Source of the DNA: Streptomyces paludis
GTDB lineage: Bacteria > Actinomycetota > Actinomycetes > Streptomycetales > Streptomycetaceae
Direction: 5' to 3'
Length of the DNA stretch: 64,000 bases
NCBI RefSeq assembly: GCF_003344965.1
Contig: NZ_CP031194.1
Span: forward strand, 4,154,001-4,218,000
The stretch's first letter is position 1, and each line of letters starts with the position of its first letter. Below are positions 7,609 through 21,344 of the stretch, piece by piece. A model generated the notes under the pieces. It did no database searches, was not told the origin of the DNA, and saw only the letters and a list, made by a program, of their open reading frames with translations. A program made the translations under genes and the position numbers.

Positions 7609-8067
7609 TCACTCCCCGGATCCGAAGACGGGGCGATCCGGCGACATCGACTCGTCCTCGGGCGCGCCAGTGTTCTGGCAGGCGGTCAGGAGCCACCGCC
7701 CGTCTTCCTTCGCCATGATCCACAGCGGAGAGCCCACGTCCAGTCCCTCGGGTGTCTGGTACAGCTGGCGGAGCTTGACCGCGGCGACGTCGGGGCGGAT
7801 GAACAACACGTGTTCCAATTCGAACGTCATCGTCAGGCCCTGCATCCCGCCAGGGAGAACTTGGTGTGTGAAGGCCGAGATCGCATCGTGGCCGAAGAGT
7901 CGCTTGCCTCCACCCGTTGTCCAGATTGCGTCGGCTCGGAAGAGGCTGAGGAACTCGTCAGGGAGTTCGTTGTTCTGGGCGTGTTCGACCGTGGCGACGA
8001 CCTGCTTGATCGCTTCGATCTCGGCTTCGCGGGTCCGTGCGTCGATGTCTGTATTCATGGTGGCCAC
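7609..8067 (-). CDS. SgcJ/EcaC-like SnoaL-fold protein
   Basis: A 152-residue protein of the NTF2-like/DUF4440 fold annotated as the SgcJ/EcaC oxidoreductase family. Typical features are IKQVVATVEHAQNNELPDEFLSLFRADAIWTTGGGKRLFGHDAI at the N-terminus and DGRWLLTACQNT near the end. Enzymatic activity in this family is generally unproved. Small-ligand isomerase, cyclase or binding roles are known in relatives. The GTG at 8067 lies 13 bases after GAGG, and an ATG at 8058 is the alternative. It is transcribed alone and ends against the shared terminator at 7513. Confidence 0.82.
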   Translation of the reverse strand: MATMNTDIDARTREAEIEAIKQVVATVEHAQNNELPDEFLSLFRADAIWTTGGGKRLFGHDAISAFTHQVLPGGMQGLTMTFELEHVLFIRPDVAAVKLRQLYQTPEGLDVGSPLWIMAKEDGRWLLTACQNTGAPEDESMSPDRPVFGSGE

Positions 8068-8160
8068 TGTGAAATATCAACCTCGCTTGAGGTCAAGGAT
8101 TTGCGGCGAACTCACGGCGAGCGCGACGGCAGTCACTCATTGCGGATCGGGAACGACTGG

Positions 8161-8187
8161 AGCCCTGCCGGGGAGCCCGGCAGGGCT
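8161..8187 (-). terminator. 11-bp-stem hairpin
   Basis: AGCCCTGCCGG and CCGGCAGGGCT are perfect arms around a GGAGC loop. It lies 40 bases beyond the stop of the small minus-strand gene at 8227-8466 and upstream of the SgcJ-like gene, so it separates the two transcription units. Confidence 0.75.
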
Positions 8188-8226
8188 TACGTATGGGTGC
8201 TGTGTGAGCGGACATGCCGGCCTCAG

Positions 8227-8466
8227 CTACTCGGGGCAGGCGCTACCGCTCCCGCCCCCACTTCCGCTGCCATCCTGGCCGTCGCCGCCGCTGGGCTCGC
8301 GCGGTGCCTCCGGGGGCTTGGGGCCTCCGTCGTGCTTGCCGCCGTCGGCGTCGGCCGTGTGTGCCGGGACGTCGTCCGGCAGGCGGAACGGCACGCCGCG
8401 CCACCCCATGGGGTCGGGCGCGTGCGTCTCGTACGTATCGACCGTGTCGACGGTCTGAACGCTCAT
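8227..8466 (-). CDS. Small acidic Gly/Pro-rich protein, unrecognised
   Basis: A 79-residue protein with no family I recognise. The first 35 residues look structured (SVQTVDTVDTYETHAPDP then MGWRGVPFRLPDD). The rest is disordered, rich in Gly, Asp and Pro, and ends SGSACPE with a single cysteine. Its ribosome site is the strongest in the window: AAGGAGGTAACC directly before the ATG, an almost full match to the 16S tail. It has its own terminator (8161) and a dyad-rich control region (8531-8630). The leader-plus-variable-tail shape could fit a RiPP precursor or a small regulator. No modifying enzyme lies beside it. Confidence 0.65.
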   Translation of the reverse strand: MSVQTVDTVDTYETHAPDPMGWRGVPFRLPDDVPAHTADADGGKHDGGPKPPEAPREPSGGDGQDGSGSGGGSGSACPE

Positions 8467-8530
8467 GGTTACCTCCTTGCTCTTCGCGCGCTGAGGGCGC
8501 GCTTGCCGCGTGGTTTCGGCGGCTTGAGCG

Positions 8531-8630
8531 GGACGCTAGTCCGTGCGATCCAGTAGCACTAGCTAAAGAAGTCCGTATCACTCGTTAGGGTCAAACACTT
8601 GATACGGAGCCGTCGCAAACGCTAGCGTCC
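8531..8630. promoter_or_regulatory. Dyad-rich, CTAG-rich control region
   Basis: Three inverted repeats are packed into 100 bases. GGACGCTAG (8531) pairs with CTAGCGTCC (8622), TCCGTATCA (8572) pairs with TGATACGGA (8600), and GCTAGT (8535) pairs with ACTAGC (8558). Three CTAG tetramers, normally rare, sit within them. The region is noticeably more AT-rich than its surroundings. It lies upstream of the minus-strand gene at 8227-8466 and also upstream of the plus-strand pair starting at 8813, so it may control both. Confidence 0.6.
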
Positions 8631-8812
8631 TTGTGGCGCGACGCCGGGCCGACTCCTCGTCAGGGGACCCGGCGGCGGCCAACTCCCCTGCACTCTGCGC
8701 CTGTTGGGGAGTGTTATCGACAGGGCCCGGCCCCTCGCCTGCGGCTCGTCACGCCGGCCAAGGGCGGCTGGGGCGGGCCCTGTCTCTCTGTCTCTCTGTC
8801 TGAAGGGATGGC

Positions 8813-9001
8813 ATGACGACGCTCAGCACATTGCCCATGCCGCATCAACTCGTATGTGAGACAACGGCCTTGGAGGACGTTGCATTACCGCCCGGTGGGA
8901 TCTGGAACCTGGTGCCCGCCTCCGTACCCCGGGAGTTTGACGAGCCGACGCCGGAGTTGCTGGCGCGGGTGAGGCTGGGGCTCAGGAGGTGGGTCGCGTG
9001 A
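8813..9001 (+). CDS. Small protein, unrecognised (62 aa)
   Basis: A 62-residue protein of no known family. It has PPGGIWNLVPASVPREFDEP in the middle and a basic amphipathic C-terminal helix (ELLARVRLGLRRWVA). A GAAGGG lies just before the ATG at 8813. Its stop overlaps the GTG of the next gene by 4 bases and the AGGAGG for that gene lies inside it, so the two are translated together. Function unknown. Confidence 0.6.
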   Translation: MTTLSTLPMPHQLVCETTALEDVALPPGGIWNLVPASVPREFDEPTPELLARVRLGLRRWVA

Positions 9002-9231
9002 CGAGGGGCAAGGGGAGTTACGCGCGGCAGCGGTTGTCGCTGCTGATCGCCATGTTCGGAGTGAACGGCGCGTTGGTCATCCCCCGGGACACCCCTCCGC
9101 CCCCCGACCCGGACCCCGGACCCGCACCCAAGCCCGCCCCTCCGGGGCCGGAGCAACCACCGCCCACAACAGACGAGTTGAGCGCCCGCATCGCAGAACG
9201 CAACAAGCGCAGCAGCCGTGGCGGGGTATGA
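8998..9231 (+). CDS. Small proline-rich protein, unrecognised (77 aa)
   Basis: A 77-residue protein. A basic N-terminus (TRGKGSYARQRLSL) is followed by a short hydrophobic stretch (LLIAMFGVNGALVI), a run of Pro-Asp, Pro-Gly and Pro-Ala dipeptides, and a charged end (ELSARIAERNKRSS). It looks like a single-pass or peripheral membrane protein with a proline linker. The GTG at 8998 is set by AGGAGG at 8984 and by the 4-base overlap with the preceding gene. Family and function unknown. Confidence 0.6.
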   Translation: MTRGKGSYARQRLSLLIAMFGVNGALVIPRDTPPPPDPDPGPAPKPAPPGPEQPPPTTDELSARIAERNKRSSRGGV

Positions 9232-10929: not shown

Positions 10930-11570
10930 GGGTCTGCGGGCCGGACACCCCGCCCACATGTCCCATATGAGATAGTTTGGCGGCCTGTTGGAGGTCTCCT
11001 CGGGCGGCACATGTGTCCTCAGGTGCGTTAGCGGCCCTCCTAGACGCATGGACGGCCTTCAAGGGCCCACTTGTCGCCACCCGCGTCCCAGTAACCCCAC
11101 AACCCACACCACGGTGACCAGCGGGGCTTGTGTCTCAGCAAACAGCGGACCGTCAGCCGCCGAGACGGGGCCGAGTCACCCCACTCCTCTGCCGCGCAGC
11201 CCCGCAGGGCCCACCGGCCTGCCAGCCCCTGAGCCGAGTGGCAGTACGGCGCCACCCCTTGGGCCCCCTCCCCCCGGCCGCCCCCCCCTCATCCGCACTT
11301 GCGACTCCGGGGGAGGTGTCAAGGGCGGAGCGCAGCGGAGTCGGCGTAGCCGACGCGACGAAGGAGCGCCCTTTACTCCTCCCCCGGAGGCGCGACACTG
11401 AAGGGAGGAGGGGCGGCCCAGCGCCCAGCATCTCGCTCCCGGCCCGCCCCGGTTACCTCTTGGTACTGACCCGCACCCGACAACCCCACGGCGCCCAGCG
11501 GGGCGCGAGTCTCAACCAGCAGGCGGCCGTCAGCCGCCGAACCGACCCCCGCAGCCCCATTCAAGAGGGC
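10930..11570. repeat. Mosaic of dispersed repeat copies (copy 2 and flanks)
   Basis: There is no gene in the kilobase 10775-11791. It holds three repeat parts. Bases 10965-11058 match the other half of the 37.9-kb copy (TTTGGCGGCCTGTT, CATGTGTCCT, GGTGCGT landmarks). Bases 11155-11435 are the inverted counterpart of 9800-10065. Bases 11060-11170 and 11440-11560 are partial direct repeats of each other (both with ACCCCAC, CAGCGGGGC and CGTCAGCCGCCGA). The element has therefore been duplicated, inverted and rearranged here. Confidence 0.7.
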
Positions 11571-11640
11571 GAGCCCCGCAGGGCCCGCCCGCCGGCAGCC
11601 GCCCACTGGCCGATGGCCGCCGCCCTCTGCTGGGTCAACA

Positions 11641-13077: not shown

Positions 13078-14496
13078 TCAGGCCGCCACCGCGCCCGTGC
13101 GTACAGCGAACTCGCGCAGGCCGGCCAGGCTGCCCGGCCTGTAGAGGAGATCGGCCGTGAGTGTGCGGATCGCGGGTCGCCTGACCTCTTCGGGCGCGGT
13201 GTGCTCGATGGCTCGTAGCGCGCTGAAAGTGCGGCGTCCGTAGCCCAGTTGGTGCCATACGCGGGCCGTGTCCGTGAGGTAGCGGGCGACCCTTTCCGTG
13301 TTCGCCAACTGTGCGGGCTTGACGCGGCGGACGTACGGAACGGCGTCGTCGGGTGTGCCGAGGACCGTGAGGCTGCTGATCCGGTACATCTGGACATCGG
13401 CAGGACTGGCCGAGATCGTGAAGAGACCTGCGGGTTTTCCGCTCCGATCGACGGGGACGCGGTTGGCGGTCTCCTCCGCCTCCTGGAGCAGGCCGAGCGC
13501 GGTGCTGCGACGACCACCGGACGCGGCCGTGTAGGCGGCGGTCATGAGCAGGCAGGCGCGGGCGGCCAGGGTGTCGGCCTGCGGACCGTTCTTCTCCGCG
13601 ACCAGCGAAGTCGCCGTACGGACCAGGAAGTCGACGGTGGCCGAGCTGCGGCCGGCACGGCGCATGGTGATGGCCAGGACCCGGGCGGCGTCGCTGAGGG
13701 GCCGCGGATCGCCACTGGCCCGCGCCGCGATGAGCGCACGGTCCGCGGTGGCCCAGGCGGCCTCGGAGTGCTGCTTGACGGCGAGTTCGGTGGCCAGCAC
13801 GTAGGCGCGGGCAATGGCGGCCTGGGCGCGCTCCCGCGCGCGGCCGGTGGTGGCGTCCCGGGTCGCCTCGGCCGTGGCGATCAGCGGGGGAAGGGCGTTG
13901 CCGAGGGCGGCGTAGCGGGCGCCGGAGAACATCTCGCGGGCCGTTGTGAGTCCGTCGGCGAGATCGCTCAGGCTCGTCGGTCTGCTGGTGACCGGCTCGA
14001 ACAGCGCCCGTTCCATGGCGGCGGCCGGGTTCTGGGCGGCCGGTTCCGCCGCGGCGGCATCGGAGCCGGCCCCGGCGATCAGACCGGCGCCGAGTCCCAG
14101 CGCCCCAGCCATCAGTTCCCGACGTCGCACATCGTCCTCCAGCTCGGCTTCGGTCACCATAGCGGCCGCCGGCGGCATAGCGGGCGCGTTGCGGCGAGCC
14201 CTGGGATCAGTGCTGCCGCTCTGGTCGGCAAGGCCCAGGAGGGAGTGCGGGATGGCGAGGCCCTCGGCGATCCGTAGCAGGACATCGACGCTCTGAACCT
14301 GGCGCACTCCCCGCTCGATCGCACTGACATCGGACTGGGCGAGCCCGGCGAGGGAGCCCACGAGGGTCTGGCTGGCGCCGGTGTACTGCCGGAAGTGCTT
14401 GATCACGGCGGCGAGGTCGCGCGCTGCGAGGGCTCGTCGCGCCTTCTCGTGATCCCAAAGATCGACGGGAACGACCAGCCGGGAGTGGCTGCGCAC
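13078..14496 (-). CDS. Large XRE regulator divergent from the 14.7-kb operon
   Basis: A 472-residue protein. An N-terminal XRE helix-turn-helix (about residues 25-80, YTGASQTLVGSLAGLAQSDVSAIERG) is followed by a linker and an alpha-helical, TPR-like region to the end, as in many Streptomyces pathway regulators. The GTG at 14496 is chosen for the GAGGGGAG six bases upstream. The longer reading frame above it has no ribosome site. The gene is divergent from the polyproline/biosynthetic operon with about 250 bases between them, so it is the likely pathway-specific regulator. Confidence 0.85.
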   Translation of the reverse strand: MRSHSRLVVPVDLWDHEKARRALAARDLAAVIKHFRQYTGASQTLVGSLAGLAQSDVSAIERGVRQVQSVDVLLRIAEGLAIPHSLLGLADQSGSTDPRARRNAPAMPPAAAMVTEAELEDDVRRRELMAGALGLGAGLIAGAGSDAAAAEPAAQNPAAAMERALFEPVTSRPTSLSDLADGLTTAREMFSGARYAALGNALPPLIATAEATRDATTGRARERAQAAIARAYVLATELAVKQHSEAAWATADRALIAARASGDPRPLSDAARVLAITMRRAGRSSATVDFLVRTATSLVAEKNGPQADTLAARACLLMTAAYTAASGGRRSTALGLLQEAEETANRVPVDRSGKPAGLFTISASPADVQMYRISSLTVLGTPDDAVPYVRRVKPAQLANTERVARYLTDTARVWHQLGYGRRTFSALRAIEHTAPEEVRRPAIRTLTADLLYRPGSLAGLREFAVRTGAVAA

Positions 14497-14749
14497 AGTG
14501 ATCTCCCCTCCGGGGGCGGCGGCATGACCTTGTCTCAGAGTAGGGCCGTCGTGACTCCCTGTCAGGGCAGTGGGTGGGGCGGCGGGGCGCCAGAGGGCCG
14601 TCCTATAGGGCCGTCGGATGGGTTTCACCCACGTGTCCTCCCAGTCTGTGAGTGCACAGAGAACTCCAGAACTCCCCGCACAGCACTCGGCAACCGTCCG
14701 GTTCCCGCAGTTCCGTGCTGGGCTCACCCCTGGTCGAAGGAGTGTTCAC
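14497..14749. promoter_or_regulatory. Divergent control region of the regulator and operon
   Basis: This 253-base region has no gene. It contains two short dyads: TGGGT-TTC-ACCCA near 14620 and CTGTG-AGTG-CACAG near 14648. It ends in the GAAGGAG site for the small peptide gene. The dyads are the best candidate targets of the divergent XRE protein, and no promoter can be assigned with confidence. Confidence 0.4.
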
Positions 14750-14833
14750 ATGCCGCAGCCGCCTTCTCCGCCCCCGCCGCCGCCCCCGCCGGGGCCGCTC
14801 CCGACTCCGCCCCCGCCCGGCGGCGGTGAGTAG
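14750..14833 (+). CDS. 27-residue polyproline peptide (leader or precursor)
   Basis: A tiny open frame encoding MPQPPSPPPPPPPPGPLPTP then PPPGGGE, with 17 prolines including eight in a row, and a TAG stop. GAAGGAG sits seven bases before the ATG, and the next gene starts 49 bases after its stop with its own AAGGAG, so it is placed exactly where a leader or precursor gene would be. Eight consecutive prolines should stall ribosomes unless EF-P acts, so a translational attenuator is one reading. The other is a peptide substrate for the operon's kinase, glycosyltransferase and glutamate ligase (Ser6, Thr19 and the C-terminal GGGE are candidate sites). Neither is proved. Confidence 0.6.
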   Translation: MPQPPSPPPPPPPPGPLPTPPPPGGGE

Positions 14834-14882
14834 GTCCCCGGCCCCGCTGTCTCAAGCGCAGACATCGACAAGGAGAAACCCC

Positions 14883-15719
14883 GTGCAGGGAATCACCGTG
14901 CTCAACCCCGACGAACTGGGGCAGGACCCCGCTGTCGGCATGGATCTGGCCCTCGTGCTGGGCGTGGGGCACCTGGAGATCCGTACGGCCTACGGTTCGA
15001 ACGCCCTCGTCCTGAGCGACGCGCGGCTTCGCGAGATCCGGCGGCTGGCCGACGAACGGGGGCTGCGCGTGGCGGCGCTGGCGTCCCCGCTGTGGAAGTG
15101 GTGCCGTCCCGAGGCTGTGCCCGGCAGGGTCGACAGCTTCGGCTTTCCCACTCAGGTCCCGGCCGACGACCGGGCACGCTGGGTGGACCGCGCGCTCGCC
15201 GTCGCCGGCATCCTGGGCACCGACCGCGTCCGCGTCTTCTCCCACCTGTCCGTGGGCGAGGAGACGGAGACGTTCCGGGACGACCCGCTGCTGACGTACG
15301 CCCTCAAGGCCGCGGAACGGGCCGGGGTGCGGCTGCTGCTGGAGAACGAGCCGGTGTGCACGATCACCGAACCGGCGCAGCTCTTGGAGGTGCTCCGCGA
15401 GCACACCGGGCTGGGACTCTGGCTCGACCTGGGGAATCTGTACGAGGCCGGGCACGGCACGGCGGAAGCCGTCGAAGCCCTCGCCCCGTACGTCGAGTAC
15501 GTCCATGCCAAGGACTACGTGCCGCGCGACGACGGCAGGAAGCGGTTCGTGGCGGCGGGTGACGGCGATGTGCCGTACGCGGACCTGCTTCCCGTCCTGC
15601 ACCGGGTACGGCCGGTGCTGCCGTACGCGCTGGAGACGCACGTACGGGAGACTCCGGGCGAGGCGCTGACGCGTGGCGCGGCCTTCCTGCGCGGCGCCGT
15701 CCCGGGCGGCCTGGCGTGA
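14883..15719 (+). CDS. Xylose-isomerase-like TIM-barrel enzyme
   Basis: A 278-residue metal-dependent TIM barrel of the sugar phosphate isomerase/epimerase (AP_endonuc_2) superfamily. The expected metal ligands are present: Glu154 (LLLENEP), Asp182 (LWLDLGN), His208 (YVHAKD) and Glu251 (ALETH). The same fold includes 3-dehydroshikimate dehydratases of the AsbF/QuiC type and inosose or ketose epimerases. The shikimate dehydrogenase in this operon makes a shikimate-derived substrate worth testing. The GTG at 14883 follows AAGGAG at 14870. Its stop overlaps the next start (GTGA). Confidence 0.88.
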   Translation: MQGITVLNPDELGQDPAVGMDLALVLGVGHLEIRTAYGSNALVLSDARLREIRRLADERGLRVAALASPLWKWCRPEAVPGRVDSFGFPTQVPADDRARWVDRALAVAGILGTDRVRVFSHLSVGEETETFRDDPLLTYALKAAERAGVRLLLENEPVCTITEPAQLLEVLREHTGLGLWLDLGNLYEAGHGTAEAVEALAPYVEYVHAKDYVPRDDGRKRFVAAGDGDVPYADLLPVLHRVRPVLPYALETHVRETPGEALTRGAAFLRGAVPGGLA

Positions 15720-16648
15720 GGCGGGTTCTGCTCATCGGCTCCGGGGAGGTCGGAGCCAAGCACACCGAGGCCCTGAACCGCACCGACGGGATGGACCTGG
15801 TGGGCGTCGCCGACCCCTCTCCAGTCGTTGCCCCACCTGCCGGGGTGCCGCTGTTCGCACAGTGGGGGAACGCGCTCGGACAACTCGCACCGGACGTTGT
15901 CGTGGTGGCTGCGCCACCCGTCACCGCTCTGGTGGCTGCCCGGGCCGCCGCGCGGGCCGGCGCGACCGTCCTCGTGGAGAAGCCGGTCACACTCAACCCC
16001 GCCGACCTGGCACCGGCACTGGAAGACCGGCGGATCTTCGTCGCCTTCCAGCCGCACTTCGCCCCCGGGCTCGCCGGGCTGCTCGACCAGGCGCCGCCGG
16101 TTCGGCGGGCCACGGTGACACTGGTGTGCCGCCGGGACCGCGCCTACTACCGGAGCTGGCGCACCCGGTACGCCACCGCCGGGGGCATCCTGCACCAGCA
16201 GGCGATCCACGGACTGGCCCTCGCCCTGCGCCTGCTGGCACCCGCGCCGATTACCTCCTGCACCGCCGAGGTACGCCGTGTCCGGCAGTGGGCCGAATCC
16301 GAGGACCGCATCACCGCGACGGTGGCGTTCGAGGGCGGCGCACTCCTGACGGTGGACGCTCGGGTCGACAGCGACGAGCCTCGGCGTCACGACGTGAGCG
16401 TGCACCTGGACGACGGGCGGCAGGTGCACGTGCGCGGCCGGAATCTCGAAGCCGGCCTCGGCAGGCCGCAGTCCGCCCCCAGCGATCTGGCGCTGCGCCA
16501 GACCATGTACCGGTCATTGCCCGCCGGTGACACCGGTCCGCGCCATCCGTCCCTGTTCCCGCTTCCTCAGCTCCGCCGCACCCTGGAGGTCATCGATTGT
16601 GCCTACCGCAACGCGCGCACCGTTTCTGAGGCCGGTACTGCCACATGA
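15716..16648 (+). CDS. Gfo/Idh/MocA-type oxidoreductase
   Basis: A 310-residue NAD(P)-dependent dehydrogenase. The Rossmann start is LLIGSGEVGAKHTEAL (residues 4-20), followed by VLVEKPVTL (about residue 85), the conserved Lys-Pro element. GGILHQQAIHGLAL (about 155-170) carries the catalytic His of the C-terminal domain. Family members oxidise or reduce cyclic polyols and sugars, including inositols and UDP-sugars. The GTG at 15716 overlaps the previous stop by 4 bases, and the next gene starts 50 bases inside its end. The substrate is probably the product of the TIM-barrel enzyme. Confidence 0.88.
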   Translation: MRRVLLIGSGEVGAKHTEALNRTDGMDLVGVADPSPVVAPPAGVPLFAQWGNALGQLAPDVVVVAAPPVTALVAARAAARAGATVLVEKPVTLNPADLAPALEDRRIFVAFQPHFAPGLAGLLDQAPPVRRATVTLVCRRDRAYYRSWRTRYATAGGILHQQAIHGLALALRLLAPAPITSCTAEVRRVRQWAESEDRITATVAFEGGALLTVDARVDSDEPRRHDVSVHLDDGRQVHVRGRNLEAGLGRPQSAPSDLALRQTMYRSLPAGDTGPRHPSLFPLPQLRRTLEVIDCAYRNARTVSEAGTAT

Positions 16649-17825
16649 CCTCGATGTCGAGGTCGTCGAGCGCAAAGGCGTCGGGCACCCGGACACCCTC
16701 GCCGACTCCATCGCCGAGCTGGCCTCGATCCGCTACAGCGACTACTGCCTGAGCGAGTTCGGCGCCGTCCTGCACCACAACCTCGACAAGGTGGCCGTCC
16801 TCGGCGGTCGCGCCCGATTCGGTGACACCGACGGCATGTACGACCGCCCCGTACGGGTGATCTTCGGCGGCCGGATCTCCAAGACCTTCGGCGGACGTGC
16901 GATCCCTGTGCGCGACATCCTCGAGAACGCCGCCGCCGAGCAACTGCGCACCGCCCTGCCGGGGTTCGAGCGGATCACCTGGCAGGTCCGGCACGAGACG
17001 ACCGACTCCTCCAAGTTCGAGCGCTGGTTCGCCCCTCGTGGCCTGGCGGACCTGCCGGAGCGCCCTACGGCCTTCTCCAACGACACCGCGTTCCTCGTCG
17101 GCACGGCACGGCGCACCACGGCCGAGACCGTAGCGCTGCTCACCGAGGCATGGTTCCGCCGGCAGCCGTGGGCGGGCAGCGATATCAAGGCCCTGGTCAT
17201 CCGCGACGGGCACGCACTGACGGTCACCGTGTGCGTCCCGGCCGTGGCCGGACACCTGGCAAGCAGCGCGGAGTTCGAGGACGCCGTCAGCGACGCCGCC
17301 CAGGAACTCACCACCCAGCTCCTCAACCGCTCGCCCGGTCCGGTCAAGGTCGTGTGCAACACCCGCGACAGCCGCTCGGGCCCGCTGTCGGGCCAGTACT
17401 TCACCGTCTCCGGATCGGCGATCGACTACGGCGAAGACGGGCTGGTCGGCCGGGGCAACGCCCGTTCCGGTCTGATCACACCCGGGCAGCAGGCCGGCAA
17501 CGAAGCCCTGTTCGGGAAGAATCCCGCCTATCACGTCGGCAAGGTCGGCGGGTGGCTCGTCGACGAGGCGAGCCGCACGCTCGCCGAGAAGACCGGCAGG
17601 CCGTGCCGTATCGCGGTGATGTGGCGCAACGGGAGCCCCTACCCGGAGCCCGCCTCGCTCGACATCACCACCGCGGCCCTCGCCCCGTCCGGCACCGAGC
17701 TGGTGCGCGATGTGCTGCGCCGCACCGACTGGGTGCCCGATCTCGTGGACAACCAGCGCTACGTGCCCACCGTTCTGCCCGCAGCCGACCTGCTGGCCGA
17801 ACTCGGCCCGCCCACGCTGCCGTGA
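16599..17825 (+). CDS. Archaeal-type S-adenosylmethionine synthetase
   Basis: A 408-residue methionine adenosyltransferase of the archaeal class, not the bacterial MetK class. The marker strings are VERKGVGHPDTLADSIAE (residues 23-40), GGRARFGD (about 69-76), FSNDTAFLVG (about 159-168) and VGRGNARSGLITP (about 283-295). It would make S-adenosylmethionine from methionine and ATP, or use a methionine or nucleotide analogue. The GTG at 16599 follows GGAGGT and lies inside the preceding gene by 50 bases, so they are coupled. Streptomyces should already have a housekeeping metK, so this copy implies a dedicated or altered substrate. A horizontal origin is plausible. Confidence 0.88.
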   Translation: MPTATRAPFLRPVLPHDLDVEVVERKGVGHPDTLADSIAELASIRYSDYCLSEFGAVLHHNLDKVAVLGGRARFGDTDGMYDRPVRVIFGGRISKTFGGRAIPVRDILENAAAEQLRTALPGFERITWQVRHETTDSSKFERWFAPRGLADLPERPTAFSNDTAFLVGTARRTTAETVALLTEAWFRRQPWAGSDIKALVIRDGHALTVTVCVPAVAGHLASSAEFEDAVSDAAQELTTQLLNRSPGPVKVVCNTRDSRSGPLSGQYFTVSGSAIDYGEDGLVGRGNARSGLITPGQQAGNEALFGKNPAYHVGKVGGWLVDEASRTLAEKTGRPCRIAVMWRNGSPYPEPASLDITTAALAPSGTELVRDVLRRTDWVPDLVDNQRYVPTVLPAADLLAELGPPTLP

Positions 17826-18709
17826 CCCCGACCGCCGTGGCGACCGGCCACCTCACCGCTGTCCTGGGGCTTCCTCCGGGGCTGGACACAGGCCCGGCCG
17901 CCACGGCGGCCAACCGGCTTCCCGGCGGCTGGTACCTGTCCGTCCCGGGCCCCGAGAGCCGGGACTGTCCGGCCGTGACGGTGACCTACGCCGAAGCGGA
18001 GCCCACCGTCGCCGTGGACGGACAGACGGTCCGCATGAGCCTCCCCCGGCCTGTGGCCCGCTCCTCGACGCTGGCCTACACGACGTACACCGCCCTGGAA
18101 CGGGCCCGCCAGCAGCGGCACATGCTCACCCTCCACGCCAACGCGGCCGTCACGCCCAGCGGGCGCGGCGTCCTGCTGCTGGGCAACAAGGGCGCGGGCA
18201 AGACCAGCGTGACACTGGCCCTCGGCGCCCGCGGCTGGACCCACGCCGGTGACGACTTGACCGTCCTGGCCGAGAACGACGCGGAGCTGCTGATCCTGCC
18301 GGGCAAGGCGACCGCCGCCGTCCGCCCGCAGGACCCGCAGCTGTGGCAGTCCCCGAAGCCCATCGTCGGCCTCACCCCCTTCCTCCGCGTCCCCGTTCCC
18401 CTGGCAGGGGTCATCCGCCTCATCGTCCATCCCGCCGTCCCCCGCCCGCTGCTGGTGTCGGCCACGCCGTTCTCCGCGAACGAACAGCTCCGCCTCCACG
18501 AGGCCCTCGCCCGGTACATCAGCGGACTCCCCACCCCGCTGACCGGCCCCACCGGGGCGCCGTACGGACCGGTCTGGCCGCTGGACGACGTCCCGCTCGC
18601 CCGCTGGCGGACCCACCTGATCGCACGGCTCCAACAGCACCAGTACGGCTATCTGTACGCGCCCGACCCGCAGACCGCCGCCGACCTCATCACCGAGGAG
18701 TACGTGTGA
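17822..18709 (+). CDS. HPr-kinase-like P-loop kinase
   Basis: A 295-residue protein. A Walker A loop GNKGAGKTS (residues 121-129) is followed by LALGARGWTHAGDDLTVL, matching the HprK/P C-terminal kinase domain, where the Asp pair acts in phosphotransfer. The N-terminal 100 residues are divergent and lack the HprK N-domain. HprK-like kinases in peptide pathways phosphorylate Ser residues (for example in the lasso peptide paeninodin), and others act on small sugars or cofactors. The GTG at 17822 overlaps the previous stop (GTGA). The partner may be the small peptide or an intermediate of the pathway. Confidence 0.82.
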   Translation: MTPTAVATGHLTAVLGLPPGLDTGPAATAANRLPGGWYLSVPGPESRDCPAVTVTYAEAEPTVAVDGQTVRMSLPRPVARSSTLAYTTYTALERARQQRHMLTLHANAAVTPSGRGVLLLGNKGAGKTSVTLALGARGWTHAGDDLTVLAENDAELLILPGKATAAVRPQDPQLWQSPKPIVGLTPFLRVPVPLAGVIRLIVHPAVPRPLLVSATPFSANEQLRLHEALARYISGLPTPLTGPTGAPYGPVWPLDDVPLARWRTHLIARLQQHQYGYLYAPDPQTAADLITEEYV

Positions 18710-19767
18710 CGCCGAAGCCCGCCGCCGCGATCCTGCCCAGCCGGAACGAAGCCGCCACCGTCGCCGCCGTCGCCGCCGCGGTGGACAGCGCGCTGGACGA
18801 CGCGCGGGCGGTCATCGTGCACGCGGACTCATCCGACACCTCCCACACCGCCGACTCCTTCGCAGCCGTCTCCACGCTGGCCGGGACGGTCGGGCTGACC
18901 GGGCTGGAGCGGGGCAAGGGCGCCCAGATCCTTGCCGCCGCCCGGCTCGCGAAGATCGCCGACGCCGAAGTGGTGCTGATCGCCGACACCGACACCCGCG
19001 ACCCGGACCCGGCCGTCCACCGCGCGCTGCTGGACCGGGTACGCGACGGGGCCGCTCTGGCGATCGCCGACTACCCGCGCCATTGGGACGAGGCGAACCT
19101 CACCAACCATCTCGCCCGGCCGCTGATCGCCGCGACCACCGGACACGATGTTCCTCAACCGCTGGCCGGAGACCTCGCCGTCTCCCGCGAGGCCCTGGCC
19201 ACCGCCGTACGGGCCGCCGCCGCGCTGCCCGCCGAACTGGCGGTGTGCACGAACGGGTACGGCATCGATGCCTTCCTGCTGCTGACCGCCGCCGCGACCG
19301 GCCCCGTCACCTCCGTACGGATCGACGAGCCCAAACGGCATGCCGGGTCCTTCGGTCACCTCCCGGCCATCTTCCACCAGGCCGTCCCGGTGCTGCTGCA
19401 CCTGACCGCCGCGTGGAGCCGGTCGCCCGCACCGTCCGTCGGCCGCCCGGTCGTCTACCGGGCCGCCGACCGCGCGCTGTCGCCCGACCGGGTTCAGACC
19501 ATGCTGACCGCGCTGGGCGGCCTCGCGCCGCTCCCGGACGGATACGATGGCGAGCCCTGGCCGCTGCCCGTCGCGGGAGCCTGGCGCGCTGTCAACTCCG
19601 GTACCGCACCCGCCGATGCGACCCGCCAGTTGTGGCCGCACTATCTGCACCGCGTCCGTGACTGGCTCGTCAGCGGGCACCACGCCACCACCCGGCAGAG
19701 GGCCCAGGCGCTCGCCGCCGCACACGACCGTCTGCACACCGTTCTCGTCCCCGCAGGAGCTTCGTGA
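18706..19767 (+). CDS. GT2-like glycosyltransferase (GpgS-like)
   Basis: A 353-residue nucleotide-sugar transferase with a GT-A fold. The readable motifs are ILPSRNEAATV (residues 9-19), LERGKGAQIL (about 66-75) and the metal-binding IADTDTRDPDP (about 88-98). The GKG and DTD arrangement resembles glucosyl-3-phosphoglycerate synthases and mannosylglycerate synthases, which glycosylate a small carboxylic acid and not a polymer. Catalytic residues appear intact. The GTG at 18706 overlaps the preceding stop by 4 bases. It probably adds a sugar to an acid made by the earlier enzymes. Confidence 0.82.
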   Translation: MTPKPAAAILPSRNEAATVAAVAAAVDSALDDARAVIVHADSSDTSHTADSFAAVSTLAGTVGLTGLERGKGAQILAAARLAKIADAEVVLIADTDTRDPDPAVHRALLDRVRDGAALAIADYPRHWDEANLTNHLARPLIAATTGHDVPQPLAGDLAVSREALATAVRAAAALPAELAVCTNGYGIDAFLLLTAAATGPVTSVRIDEPKRHAGSFGHLPAIFHQAVPVLLHLTAAWSRSPAPSVGRPVVYRAADRALSPDRVQTMLTALGGLAPLPDGYDGEPWPLPVAGAWRAVNSGTAPADATRQLWPHYLHRVRDWLVSGHHATTRQRAQALAAAHDRLHTVLVPAGAS

Positions 19768-20516
19768 TGACCACCCCCACCTCCGGCTTCTCCGCCTTCG
19801 CCCTGGAACCCTTCCCCGAACTCCAGCCCGGCACCGATCTGGCCAGTGCCATCACCGACACCCTCACGCGCACCGGCACCGCCCTCCGGACCGGGGACAT
19901 CGTGGTGGTGGCCAGCAAGGTCGTGTCCATCGCGGAGAAGCGCTACGTCGATCTGGCCGGCATCAGCCCGTCGCCCGAGGCCGTGGAGCTGTCCGCCAGG
20001 ACGGGCAAGCCCGCCGAGGTCGTGCAGCTCATCCTGGACAACTCCACCGAGCACTTCCTGGCCACCGAACGCGGACCGATCATCGCCCGGCACACCCTCG
20101 GCCACCAGCTCACCTCGGCCGGGATCGACCGCGCCGGTACCGAGGGCGCATGGCTGCTGCCGGCAGACCCGGACTCCTCCGCCCGCGCCCTGCGCGATGC
20201 CCTGATCACCCACACCGGCGCGGACGTGGCCGTCGTCGTCGCCGACTCCGACGGCCGCGCCGACCGGCGTGGGGCGACCTGCATTTCCATCGGCGCCGCC
20301 GGGGTGGCACCCCTACGGATCACCGAGCACGACGGCAAGCGGCAGGAGGAGACCCTGACCGACATGATCGCCGCCGCGGCCGGAATCATCCTGGGCCAGC
20401 GAGGCCGCGGCGTCCCCGTTGCCGTCCTGCGCGGCATCGGCTACACCCCGTTCTCCGACGAGGGCGTGACCGCCATGCTTCACCACACCCCCGCTTCACC
20501 ACGCCCCCACTCATGA
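19764..20516 (+). CDS. CofE-like glutamate (amino acid) ligase
   Basis: A 250-residue protein of the F420-0:gamma-glutamyl ligase (CofE/FbiB N-terminal) family. Supporting strings are GDIVVVASKVVSIAEKRYVDL (about residues 44-64), THTGADVAVVVADSDGRADRRG (about 150-172) and an end reading LRGIGYTPF. The known reaction joins L-glutamate to a carboxylate using GTP. No F420 biosynthesis genes are nearby, so an analogous amide-forming step on another carboxylate is inferred. Starts at GTG 19764 or ATG 19767, overlapping the glycosyltransferase stop. Confidence 0.85.
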   Translation: MMTTPTSGFSAFALEPFPELQPGTDLASAITDTLTRTGTALRTGDIVVVASKVVSIAEKRYVDLAGISPSPEAVELSARTGKPAEVVQLILDNSTEHFLATERGPIIARHTLGHQLTSAGIDRAGTEGAWLLPADPDSSARALRDALITHTGADVAVVVADSDGRADRRGATCISIGAAGVAPLRITEHDGKRQEETLTDMIAAAAGIILGQRGRGVPVAVLRGIGYTPFSDEGVTAMLHHTPASPRPHS

Positions 20517-20528
20517 GCGCCCCTCGCG

Positions 20529-21344
20529 ATGAAGCAGCTAGCCGTACTCGGATCACCCATCGGCCAGGCACTCTCCCCGGTGCTTCACCGTGCCGCGTAC
20601 CAGGCCCTCGGCCTGAACTGGACCTACGGAGCCCGCGACTGCACCCCCGATCGACTGGCCGCCTTCCTCGCCTCCCTCGACGACACATGGGCCGGCCTGT
20701 CGCTGACCATGCCGCTCAAGCGCACTGTTGTCCCGCTCCTCGACCGGGTGTCGGACACGGTGGTGCGGATTGGAGCGGCGAACACCATCGTCGTGACGGA
20801 TGGCCGGCTCATCGGGGAGAACACCGACCTGTACGGCATGGTGCAGGCACTTCGCGAAGCGGGCACGGCGGCGCCGGCCGACGCCACAGTGCTCGGCGCC
20901 GGAGCGACCGCCTGCACAGCACTGGCTGCTGCCCGCGAGCTGGGCTGTGATCAAGCCACCGTGATCGCCCGCGATGCCGGACGGGCCCGTCCGGCCCTTG
21001 AGTCCACAGGCGAACGGATCGGCATCAGAGTTCGAGTCGAGCCTTGGGCCGCCGCGGTGGATCACCTCTCCGCCGACCTGGTCGTCTCCGCTCTGCCGCC
21101 CCGCGCCGCCGACGCTCTCGCGCCACTCTGGGCGCAGACACGCGCCTCAGGCACCCTCATGGATGTCGTCTACCGCCCCTGGCCCACCGCGCTCGCTCAT
21201 GCTGCCGAGGGGGCGGGACGGCGTGTCGTGGGCGGGCTGCCCATGCTCGTGCACCAAGCCGCCCGGCAGGTCACACTCCAGACCGGCCGGCTCACACCGC
21301 CGATCGACAAGATGCTGCATGCCGCTACGGCTGCCCTGGCCTGA
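20529..21344 (+). CDS. Shikimate dehydrogenase family enzyme
   Basis: A 271-residue AroE-like protein. The substrate-binding segments are GSPIGQALSPVLH (residues 8-20), LTMPLKR (about 60) with the catalytic Lys, and GENTDLYGM (about 97) with the catalytic Asp. The NADP-binding loop is VLGAGATACTAL (about 120). All key residues are present, so it should reduce 3-dehydroshikimate or a close analogue. The ATG at 20529 lies 12 bases after the CofE-like gene and completes the operon. As a second AroE in an accessory cluster, it points to a shikimate or quinate-type intermediate. Confidence 0.9.
   Translation: MKQLAVLGSPIGQALSPVLHRAAYQALGLNWTYGARDCTPDRLAAFLASLDDTWAGLSLTMPLKRTVVPLLDRVSDTVVRIGAANTIVVTDGRLIGENTDLYGMVQALREAGTAAPADATVLGAGATACTALAAARELGCDQATVIARDAGRARPALESTGERIGIRVRVEPWAAAVDHLSADLVVSALPPRAADALAPLWAQTRASGTLMDVVYRPWPTALAHAAEGAGRRVVGGLPMLVHQAARQVTLQTGRLTPPIDKMLHAATAALA

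Follow-up and report, generated by a model that had tools for sequence, protein, structure and literature searches.

A qim-type enzyme operon in Streptomyces paludis that recurs across phyla and carries an unusual methionine adenosyltransferase

What could an operon produce that joins relatives of a methionine adenosyltransferase (MAT), an F420-0:glutamate ligase (CofE) and a shikimate dehydrogenase (AroE) to a kinase-like protein, a glycosyltransferase, a TIM-barrel protein and an oxidoreductase? The question is raised by a locus on the contig NZ_CP031194.1 of Streptomyces paludis (positions 4,154,001 to 4,218,000; this 64-kb stretch is hereafter called the window), in which a first-pass annotation made from the sequence alone had proposed an undescribed eight-gene operon of a polyproline peptide and seven enzymes. 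On the 64-kb sequence the coordinates and the arrangement are all confirmed, i.e. the overlaps of 4 to 50 bases, the 12-base gap and the divergent helix-turn-helix (HTH) regulator (Table 1), as is the view that the genes form one biosynthetic operon, conserved as a unit, which the standard cluster classes do not cover. The operon is a real biosynthetic unit and goes beyond chance association, because identical families recur jointly across phyla. We consider it probable (roughly 70%) that it encodes an actinobacterial version of the pathway type represented by the qim operon of Streptococcus pyogenes, yielding a small phosphorylated glycoside for release or for the cell surface, with control in Streptomyces by the divergent regulator and by pausing on the leader.

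The nearest known system, the qim operon (spy49_0450-0460), was named in 2026 and comprises qimA-J, which encode, in this order, AroE, a TIM epimerase, CofE, an aldose oxidoreductase, an S-adenosylmethionine (SAM) synthase, a phosphoenolpyruvate carboxykinase (PEPCK)-like protein, a mannosylglycerate-synthase-like protein, a nonribosomal peptide synthetase (NRPS), a UDP-glucose dehydrogenase (UGDH) and a flippase (PMC13059722 Table 1). Group A streptococci use it to alter their surface and to quieten immune cells: suppression of macrophage NF-kB requires each of qimA, B, E, F, G and H (deletions of qimC and qimD were still planned), and both N-acetylglucosamine-ribitol (GlcNAc-ribitol, detected as HexNAc-ribitol) in the wall and the binding of a phage protein depend on qim (PMC13059722). 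In the accessible part of that paper the surface phenotype is established and the enzyme chemistry unsolved, the authors finding the roles of QimA, QimC and QimE unclear. Similar gene sets had been noted in 2021 in S. pyogenes, S. porcinus, S. pseudoporcinus, Salinispora tropica and the thuringiensin cluster of Bacillus thuringiensis (PMC8262891). The word 'undescribed' can therefore be kept for the enzyme chemistry and has to be given up for the gene set; likewise, the possibility raised in the first-pass annotation that a homologous operon had already been assigned to a compound turned out half true, a phenotype having been assigned and the chemistry not.

The window shares with qim the seven families QimA-QimG, encoded side by side. 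It differs in gene order (TIM, Gfo, MAT, kinase, transferase, CofE, AroE), in control (Rgg/SHP for qim, another regulator and a polyproline leader in the window) and in gene content. With the proteins of the S. pseudoporcinus locus L056 as queries, which keeps the published qimA-J order (its transporter open reading frame (ORF) was named by eye), phmmer found no relative of qimH (NRPS-like), qimI (UGDH) or qimJ (flippase) in the window at E 1e-3. Since these relatives were not found, the window operon appears to be a relative of the qim enzyme core and not a full qim operon. At E 1e-10, relatives of qimH-J occur among the core loci (defined below) only in L035, L046 (UGDH), L056 and L066, and there are none in the 26 other actinobacterial loci, several of which are on contigs that stop less than 7 kb from the MAT gene.

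Table 1. The operon, its regulator and its candidate operator in the window; protein families were assigned with Pfam and NCBIfam profiles.
Feature	Position	Strand	Details
Divergent HTH (XRE-type) regulator	13078-14502	-	HTH_31 1.1e-07; start uncertain, ORF open to 14727
Candidate operator dyad	14692-14703		AACCGTCCGGTT; before leader; by eye, from upstream sequences of window, L003, L005, L083, L024
Polyproline leader ORF	14750-14833	+	27 residues; GGAG Shine-Dalgarno; peptide MPQPPSPPPPPPPPGPLPTPPPPGGGE
TIM-barrel isomerase/epimerase/dehydratase-like protein, QimB counterpart	14883-15719	+	PF01261 AP_endonuc_2 3e-23; predicted-model pLDDT 93
Gfo/Idh/MocA oxidoreductase, QimD counterpart	15716-16648	+	PF01408 GFO_IDH_MocA 5.2e-14; 4-base overlap with TIM gene
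Archaeal-type MAT, QimE counterpart	16599-17825	+	PF01941 AdoMet_Synthase 7.4e-62; GEDG motif, E279; 50-base overlap
PEPCK/HprK-superfamily P-loop kinase-like protein, QimF counterpart	17822-18709	+	weak Hpr_kinase_C; 4-base overlap
GpgS/mannosylglycerate-synthase-like glycosyltransferase, QimG counterpart	18706-19767	+	NF010496 2.3e-10, below cut-off; 4-base overlap
CofE-like ligase, QimC counterpart	19764-20516	+	PF01996 F420_ligase 3.2e-52; 4-base overlap; alternative ATG 19767
AroE-type shikimate dehydrogenase homologue, QimA counterpart	20529-21344	+	NF001311 249.8 bits, cut-off 235; 12-base gap before

Loci were gathered by an alignment scan with the MAT and labelled with hidden Markov models, which gave 87 MAT loci, the window included. 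A locus was called core when the MAT was accompanied by two or more of kinase, transferase and CofE, so that the counts of these three are partly by construction: 38 of the 87 loci are core (including a window fragment and one copy), with the kinase in 38, the transferase in 37, CofE in 36, TIM in 28, Gfo in 26 and AroE in 19. The MAT, the PEPCK/HprK-like kinase, the GpgS-like transferase and the CofE-like ligase occur together in Actinomycetota, Bacillota, Alphaproteobacteria and Patescibacteria. By group (L007 and L042 added, L001 and L009 removed), all seven families are present in 10 of the 27 actinobacterial loci, and the 11 non-actinobacterial loci hold MAT, kinase and transferase throughout, CofE in 10, AroE in 8, TIM in 5 and Gfo in 2; the Firmicute oxidoreductases lie beyond the reach of our Gfo profile, the Pfam model GFO_IDH_MocA scoring above its cut-off in L056 and L066, below it in L035 and giving nothing in L046. 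Recruitment by the kinase alone is free of the construction inherent in the core label: seven of the eight other matches were taken, and each of these loci has the complete set of seven families, arranged in one of two gene orders; detection of the Streptococcus Gfo was by the L056 protein. One of them is the plasmid L084, already in the sample, and another resembles L066; a further Streptomyces match (G008) was left out of the comparison. A plasmid of Halorussus salilacus carries six of the seven families, namely TIM, Gfo (1.5e-05), AroE, MAT, transferase and kinase, the last as a weak match (1.1e-16); CofE was not found in the 22 kb read.

The pairwise distances of six families (without Gfo) correlate (r 0.69-0.95 after thinning): the gene set has travelled as a whole, and the sequences show the seven families QimA-QimG to be co-inherited across phyla. 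Whether the genes were co-conserved elsewhere had been left open by the first-pass annotation, and across phyla they are. Within groups the operon is rare and patchy: the MAT occurs at E 1e-60 in 2 of 100 relatives; within the genus 4 of 392 genomes have the kinase, and among 396 genomes across the phylum just 1 has it as a clear member (own genome counted in each case), 11 other genomes of the phylum giving partial P-loop matches of 5.1e-12 or weaker. In Streptococcus, the genus of L056, 6 of 118 genomes have the kinase. Three Streptomyces plasmids carry the operon (in one of the three AroE was not detected), and a fourth has a remnant. In the accessible parts of the literature the range of the qim-type core is narrower than found here; new are the cross-phylum cassette, a clade-wide Asp-to-Glu change in the MAT and the actinobacterial polyproline leader.

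In a quick, midpoint-rooted tree in which long branches meet, a single branch (Shimodaira-Hasegawa-like approximate likelihood ratio test (SH-aLRT) 96) has 38 of 84 rows, among them every core MAT, on one side. The core label applies to 36 of these 38 rows; the exceptions, L007 (a 3.3-kb contig with TIM, Gfo and a kinase remnant) and L042 (a 3.6-kb contig with CofE), are both short contigs, and their label 'other' brings the number of label changes on the tree to three. L001, L002 and L009 (fragments or a copy) were taken out for the tree, L004 in addition for the distance test and L072 also for the residue count. MATs from outside the clade came from a search with two peptide patterns, of which the best 80 of 226 relatives were kept, and form a biased sample; residue 279 lies outside both patterns. 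This residue of the window MAT is the sole position fixed differently between 18 thinned core rows and 45 others, positions 303 and 316 being mostly different, and it aligns with Asp283 of the Thermococcus enzyme (TkMAT): all 38 core-clade rows have Glu there, and all 45 others have Asp. A motif search over 121 proteins (the peptide P0001 and the best 120 of 846 matches) gives Glu in 116 and no reading in 5, and the motif in the Halorussus salilacus plasmid MAT is GEEG. Asp283 of TkMAT, like Asp238 of the E. coli enzyme, contacts the ribose hydroxyls and the methionine amino group (PMC3853416).

Apart from this change, the clade resembles the archaeal MATs (TkMAT, SsMAT, MjMAT) in belonging to PF01941 and in keeping the catalytic His (H30), the stacking Tyr (Y267), the second ribose Asp (Asp201) and the carboxylate His in 38 of 38 core rows each, as well as, in 36 and 34 of 38, Asn at the two carboxylate positions. 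The clade MAT appears to be a functional MAT-type catalyst whose contact to the amino acid or the ribose is altered, and it may use a nucleophile other than methionine. No methyltransferase, radical-SAM or other SAM-using family was found among the operon proteins of the window with Pfam and NCBIfam; with no evident SAM user, we therefore favour that the MAT product itself is on the pathway.

Another archaeal-type MAT group occurs in a recurrent Streptomyces cluster (L026, L030-L033, L037, L038, L040, L043, L044 and L086, with ORFs shared by clustering), which in L086 holds a glycosyltransferase, a TIM barrel, Gfo/Idh, an AAA protein, a carbamoyltransferase and NUDIX. A Rickettsiales (Megaera) plasmid, L106, has genes for MAT, TIM, NUDIX and Gfo/Idh, the MAT motif being GDEG in both L086 and L106. 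On a Parageobacillus plasmid (L108, 5554-9158) a MAT with the motif GDVG adjoins a myo-inositol-phosphate synthase, a PqqD-family gene and a HAD hydrolase.

The remaining enzymes bear out the kinase, transferase, glutamate-ligase-type and shikimate-type families named at first pass. In the TIM-barrel protein E154, D182, H208 and E251, which we take to be metal-site residues, are invariant in 11 aligned rows, and the fold is compatible with an epimerase, an isomerase or a dehydroshikimate dehydratase. The GpgS-like transferase has D94, D96, T133-N134-H135, Q151, G155 and Y185-G186-D188 invariant in 12 rows. The kinase-like protein shows the P-loop and the PEPCK/HprK fold and scores below the curated HprK cut-offs (20.5 bits versus 33.3, and 18.4 versus 240). 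The ligase resembles CofE in its match to PF01996 (177.6 bits) and departs from it in a sub-cut-off F420_cofE score (170 bits, cut-off 180.65) and in the retention of its relatives in genomes without an FO synthase match; the earlier term 'glutamylated' for the product derives solely from this CofE homology. In the AroE homologue S16, T60, K64, N85, D100 and Q243 are invariant in 10 of 10 rows, K64 and D100 presumably being the catalytic Lys/Asp pair and the other four presumably binding the substrate, while the first Ser of the SxS motif is Ala in the window protein. These residues would argue for a shikimate-like carboxylic acid, and the earlier phrase 'from the shikimate branch' rests on those that seem to bind the substrate.

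For the pathway as a whole we infer the order and nature of all steps as follows. AroE, the TIM barrel and the Gfo/Idh protein would supply a polyol or acid building block, which the PEPCK/HprK-like protein would phosphorylate; the GpgS-like transferase would add a sugar, the CofE-like ligase would form an amide on a carboxylate, and the special MAT would add an adenosyl group or make a dedicated SAM-like intermediate. The resulting small phosphorylated glycoside, possibly adenosyl-containing, would be released or placed on the cell surface.

In Streptomyces, expression would depend on the divergent regulator and on ribosome pausing at the polyproline leader. Homologues of the regulator (55-88% identity) are similarly divergent in L003, L005, L018 and L084; the window protein matches HTH_31/HTH_3 alone, and the Rgg_C domain, present in an L056 protein, was not found in it with Pfam. 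At the site equivalent to the candidate operator L083 reads GGCATCCGTCCGGATGCC (by eye), and the dyad arms, also by eye, change in matched fashion between window, L003 and L005 on the one hand and L083 and L024 on the other.

Of 19 actinobacterial loci surveyed (a set that leaves out L004, L007 and L009), 12 have a polyproline micro-ORF ahead of the operon, 36-120 bases before the TIM gene; in L013 it has just 13 codons, and L021, scored as absent, holds by eye a remnant without a start codon. In five close loci the nonsynonymous distance (dN 0.06-0.26) is below the synonymous one (dS 0.18-0.94) in 10 of 10 pairs, and therefore the peptide is under purifying selection there. A hairpin follows the leader in 9 of the 12 leader-bearing loci (z -2.6 or lower), its sequence being unconserved; the value in L018 is z -0.8, and none was found in the window or in L084, which speaks against simple attenuation in the window. 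By eye, window 14834-14882 compared with L003 and L005 looks as if only the leader hairpin had been deleted, close relatives retaining it. Polyproline runs are strong EF-P-dependent ribosome pause sites, and for this reason leader control by pausing is the predicted mechanism that we prefer. No five-proline run was found in any frame of the 10 non-actinobacterial loci searched (L034 lay outside the search). Because it is absent there, the peptide is not a pathway substrate: it is part of an actinobacterial leader, outside the pathway core, so that of the eight-gene unit proposed earlier the seven enzymes stand and the peptide as a pathway component does not.

An alternative use of the small ORF ahead of the enzyme genes, and of the selection acting on it, would be as precursor of a ribosomally synthesized and post-translationally modified peptide (RiPP) that the operon enzymes modify. 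We hold this to be very improbable: the enzymes are kept where the peptide is absent (7 of 19 actinobacterial and 10 of 10 non-actinobacterial loci searched), its C-terminal residue is not conserved, and no RiPP enzyme family was found among the operon proteins with Pfam and NCBIfam. Scarcely credible is the idea that the operon holds spare housekeeping enzymes for SAM, F420 and shikimate, as the families themselves and the presence of an FO synthase in the host might suggest. The host genome (8.45 Mb, single contig) encodes elsewhere a canonical MetK, as do 5 of the 7 carriers searched (host counted), as well as a second F420 ligase and two further genes for shikimate dehydrogenase, and for this reason the operon MAT, CofE and AroE are extra copies; moreover, an FO synthase match was obtained in 0 of 6 other carriers searched, three of these genomes being small drafts (0.5-1.2 Mb). 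A possible though doubtful product is an adenine nucleoside conjugate of the thuringiensin kind, composed of adenosyl, hexose, acid and phosphate, in whose synthesis the MAT would place the 5'-adenosyl group on some nucleophile instead of methionine. The Asp-to-Glu change at the contact to ribose and methionine amino group, the lack of a SAM-using family among the window operon proteins and the nucleotide-handling neighbours in L104 agree with it. So do the make-up of thuringiensin (adenosine, glucose, acid, phosphate) and the NRPS, UGDH, glycosyltransferase and kinase named in its cluster (thu), as in the Streptococcus version (PMC4147579), and the similar gene set seen there in 2021 (PMC8262891). 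Yet the published thu gene list, in the accessible text, names no MAT, CofE or AroE (PMC4147579), and most other MAT ligand positions are intact, so that ordinary SAM synthesis is possible. Nor could the likeness reported in PMC8262891 be confirmed by plasmid searches: in one collection, not checked for the thu plasmid, transferase, kinase, MAT and TIM queries gave no B. thuringiensis record, and the NRPS query matched 1233 records, 12 of them listed. Rather unlikely, too, is a farther-reaching proposal, according to which the GE-type MATs would transfer the adenosyl group of ATP to a pathway intermediate rather than to methionine, and this would be the committed step in a route to adenosyl-glycoside phosphates that is old, has spread horizontally and is common to Streptomyces, group A streptococci, Patescibacteria and haloarchaea. 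If true, this would define a new enzyme class and make the streptococcal immune effect merely one local use of the pathway.

A wall decoration with teichoic-acid-like GlcNAc-ribitol, as in S. pyogenes, is what the qim-dependent HexNAc-ribitol and phage-protein binding (PMC13059722) would suggest. We judge it unlikely for this operon, given that no qimH, qimI or qimJ relative was found in the window or in the 26 other actinobacterial loci at the thresholds, and with the contig ends, given above. Haloarchaea have, to our knowledge, neither peptidoglycan nor wall teichoic acid, and for that reason six of the seven families on a haloarchaeal plasmid count against it. The qim authors themselves, in the accessible text, cannot fit QimA, QimC and QimE into the GlcNAc-ribitol route (PMC13059722). 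The reading that we prefer, a qim-type pathway to a small phosphorylated glycoside, is weakened by several observations as well. Window and L056 proteins are merely 18-37% identical, so substrates could differ, and AroE is undetected in 17 of 27 actinobacterial loci, some of them on short contigs. The four-gene core stands alone in L020, L023, L028, L034 and L048 (adjoining a LarA-like gene in L028, and radical-SAM and dehydroquinate-synthase-like genes in L048), which implies that the starter unit may vary. On a contig of candidate division WWE3 (L060, 1934 and 3687) a kinase of the operon family (1e-90) lies near a MAT outside the clade. Finally, the accessible literature names no product for another family member, the thuringiensin remark excepted. 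We infer that the four core enzymes are fixed and that the modules for the starter unit can be exchanged.

The chemistry of the qim-type pathway is probably more general than its role in infection, because other bacteria, as well as an archaeal plasmid, carry near-complete versions. In a major human pathogen the phenotype of the qim operon is known and its chemistry unsolved, and this gives value to the Streptomyces relative, which, without NRPS, UGDH and flippase genes, offers a smaller enzyme set from a non-pathogen for working that chemistry out. The spread across phyla and the Asp-to-Glu change sharpen two questions, i.e. which target the MAT adenosylates and whether the product is a surface sugar or a nucleoside-like metabolite.

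Some further observations concern single genes. In L085 a NAD-dependent epimerase-like gene (13843-14592, by Pfam) follows CofE, and similar ORFs were seen by eye after CofE in L008, L010, L011, L016 and L017; AroE is undetected in four of these loci, and the epimerase-like gene may replace it. The viral contigs L100 and L101 carry a transferase of the operon family (7932-9170, 2e-70) without other operon genes. In the window, ARAGORN predicts a tRNA-Ser (TGA) at 11521-11593 on the minus strand, which is absent from the Rfam list at the gathering threshold.

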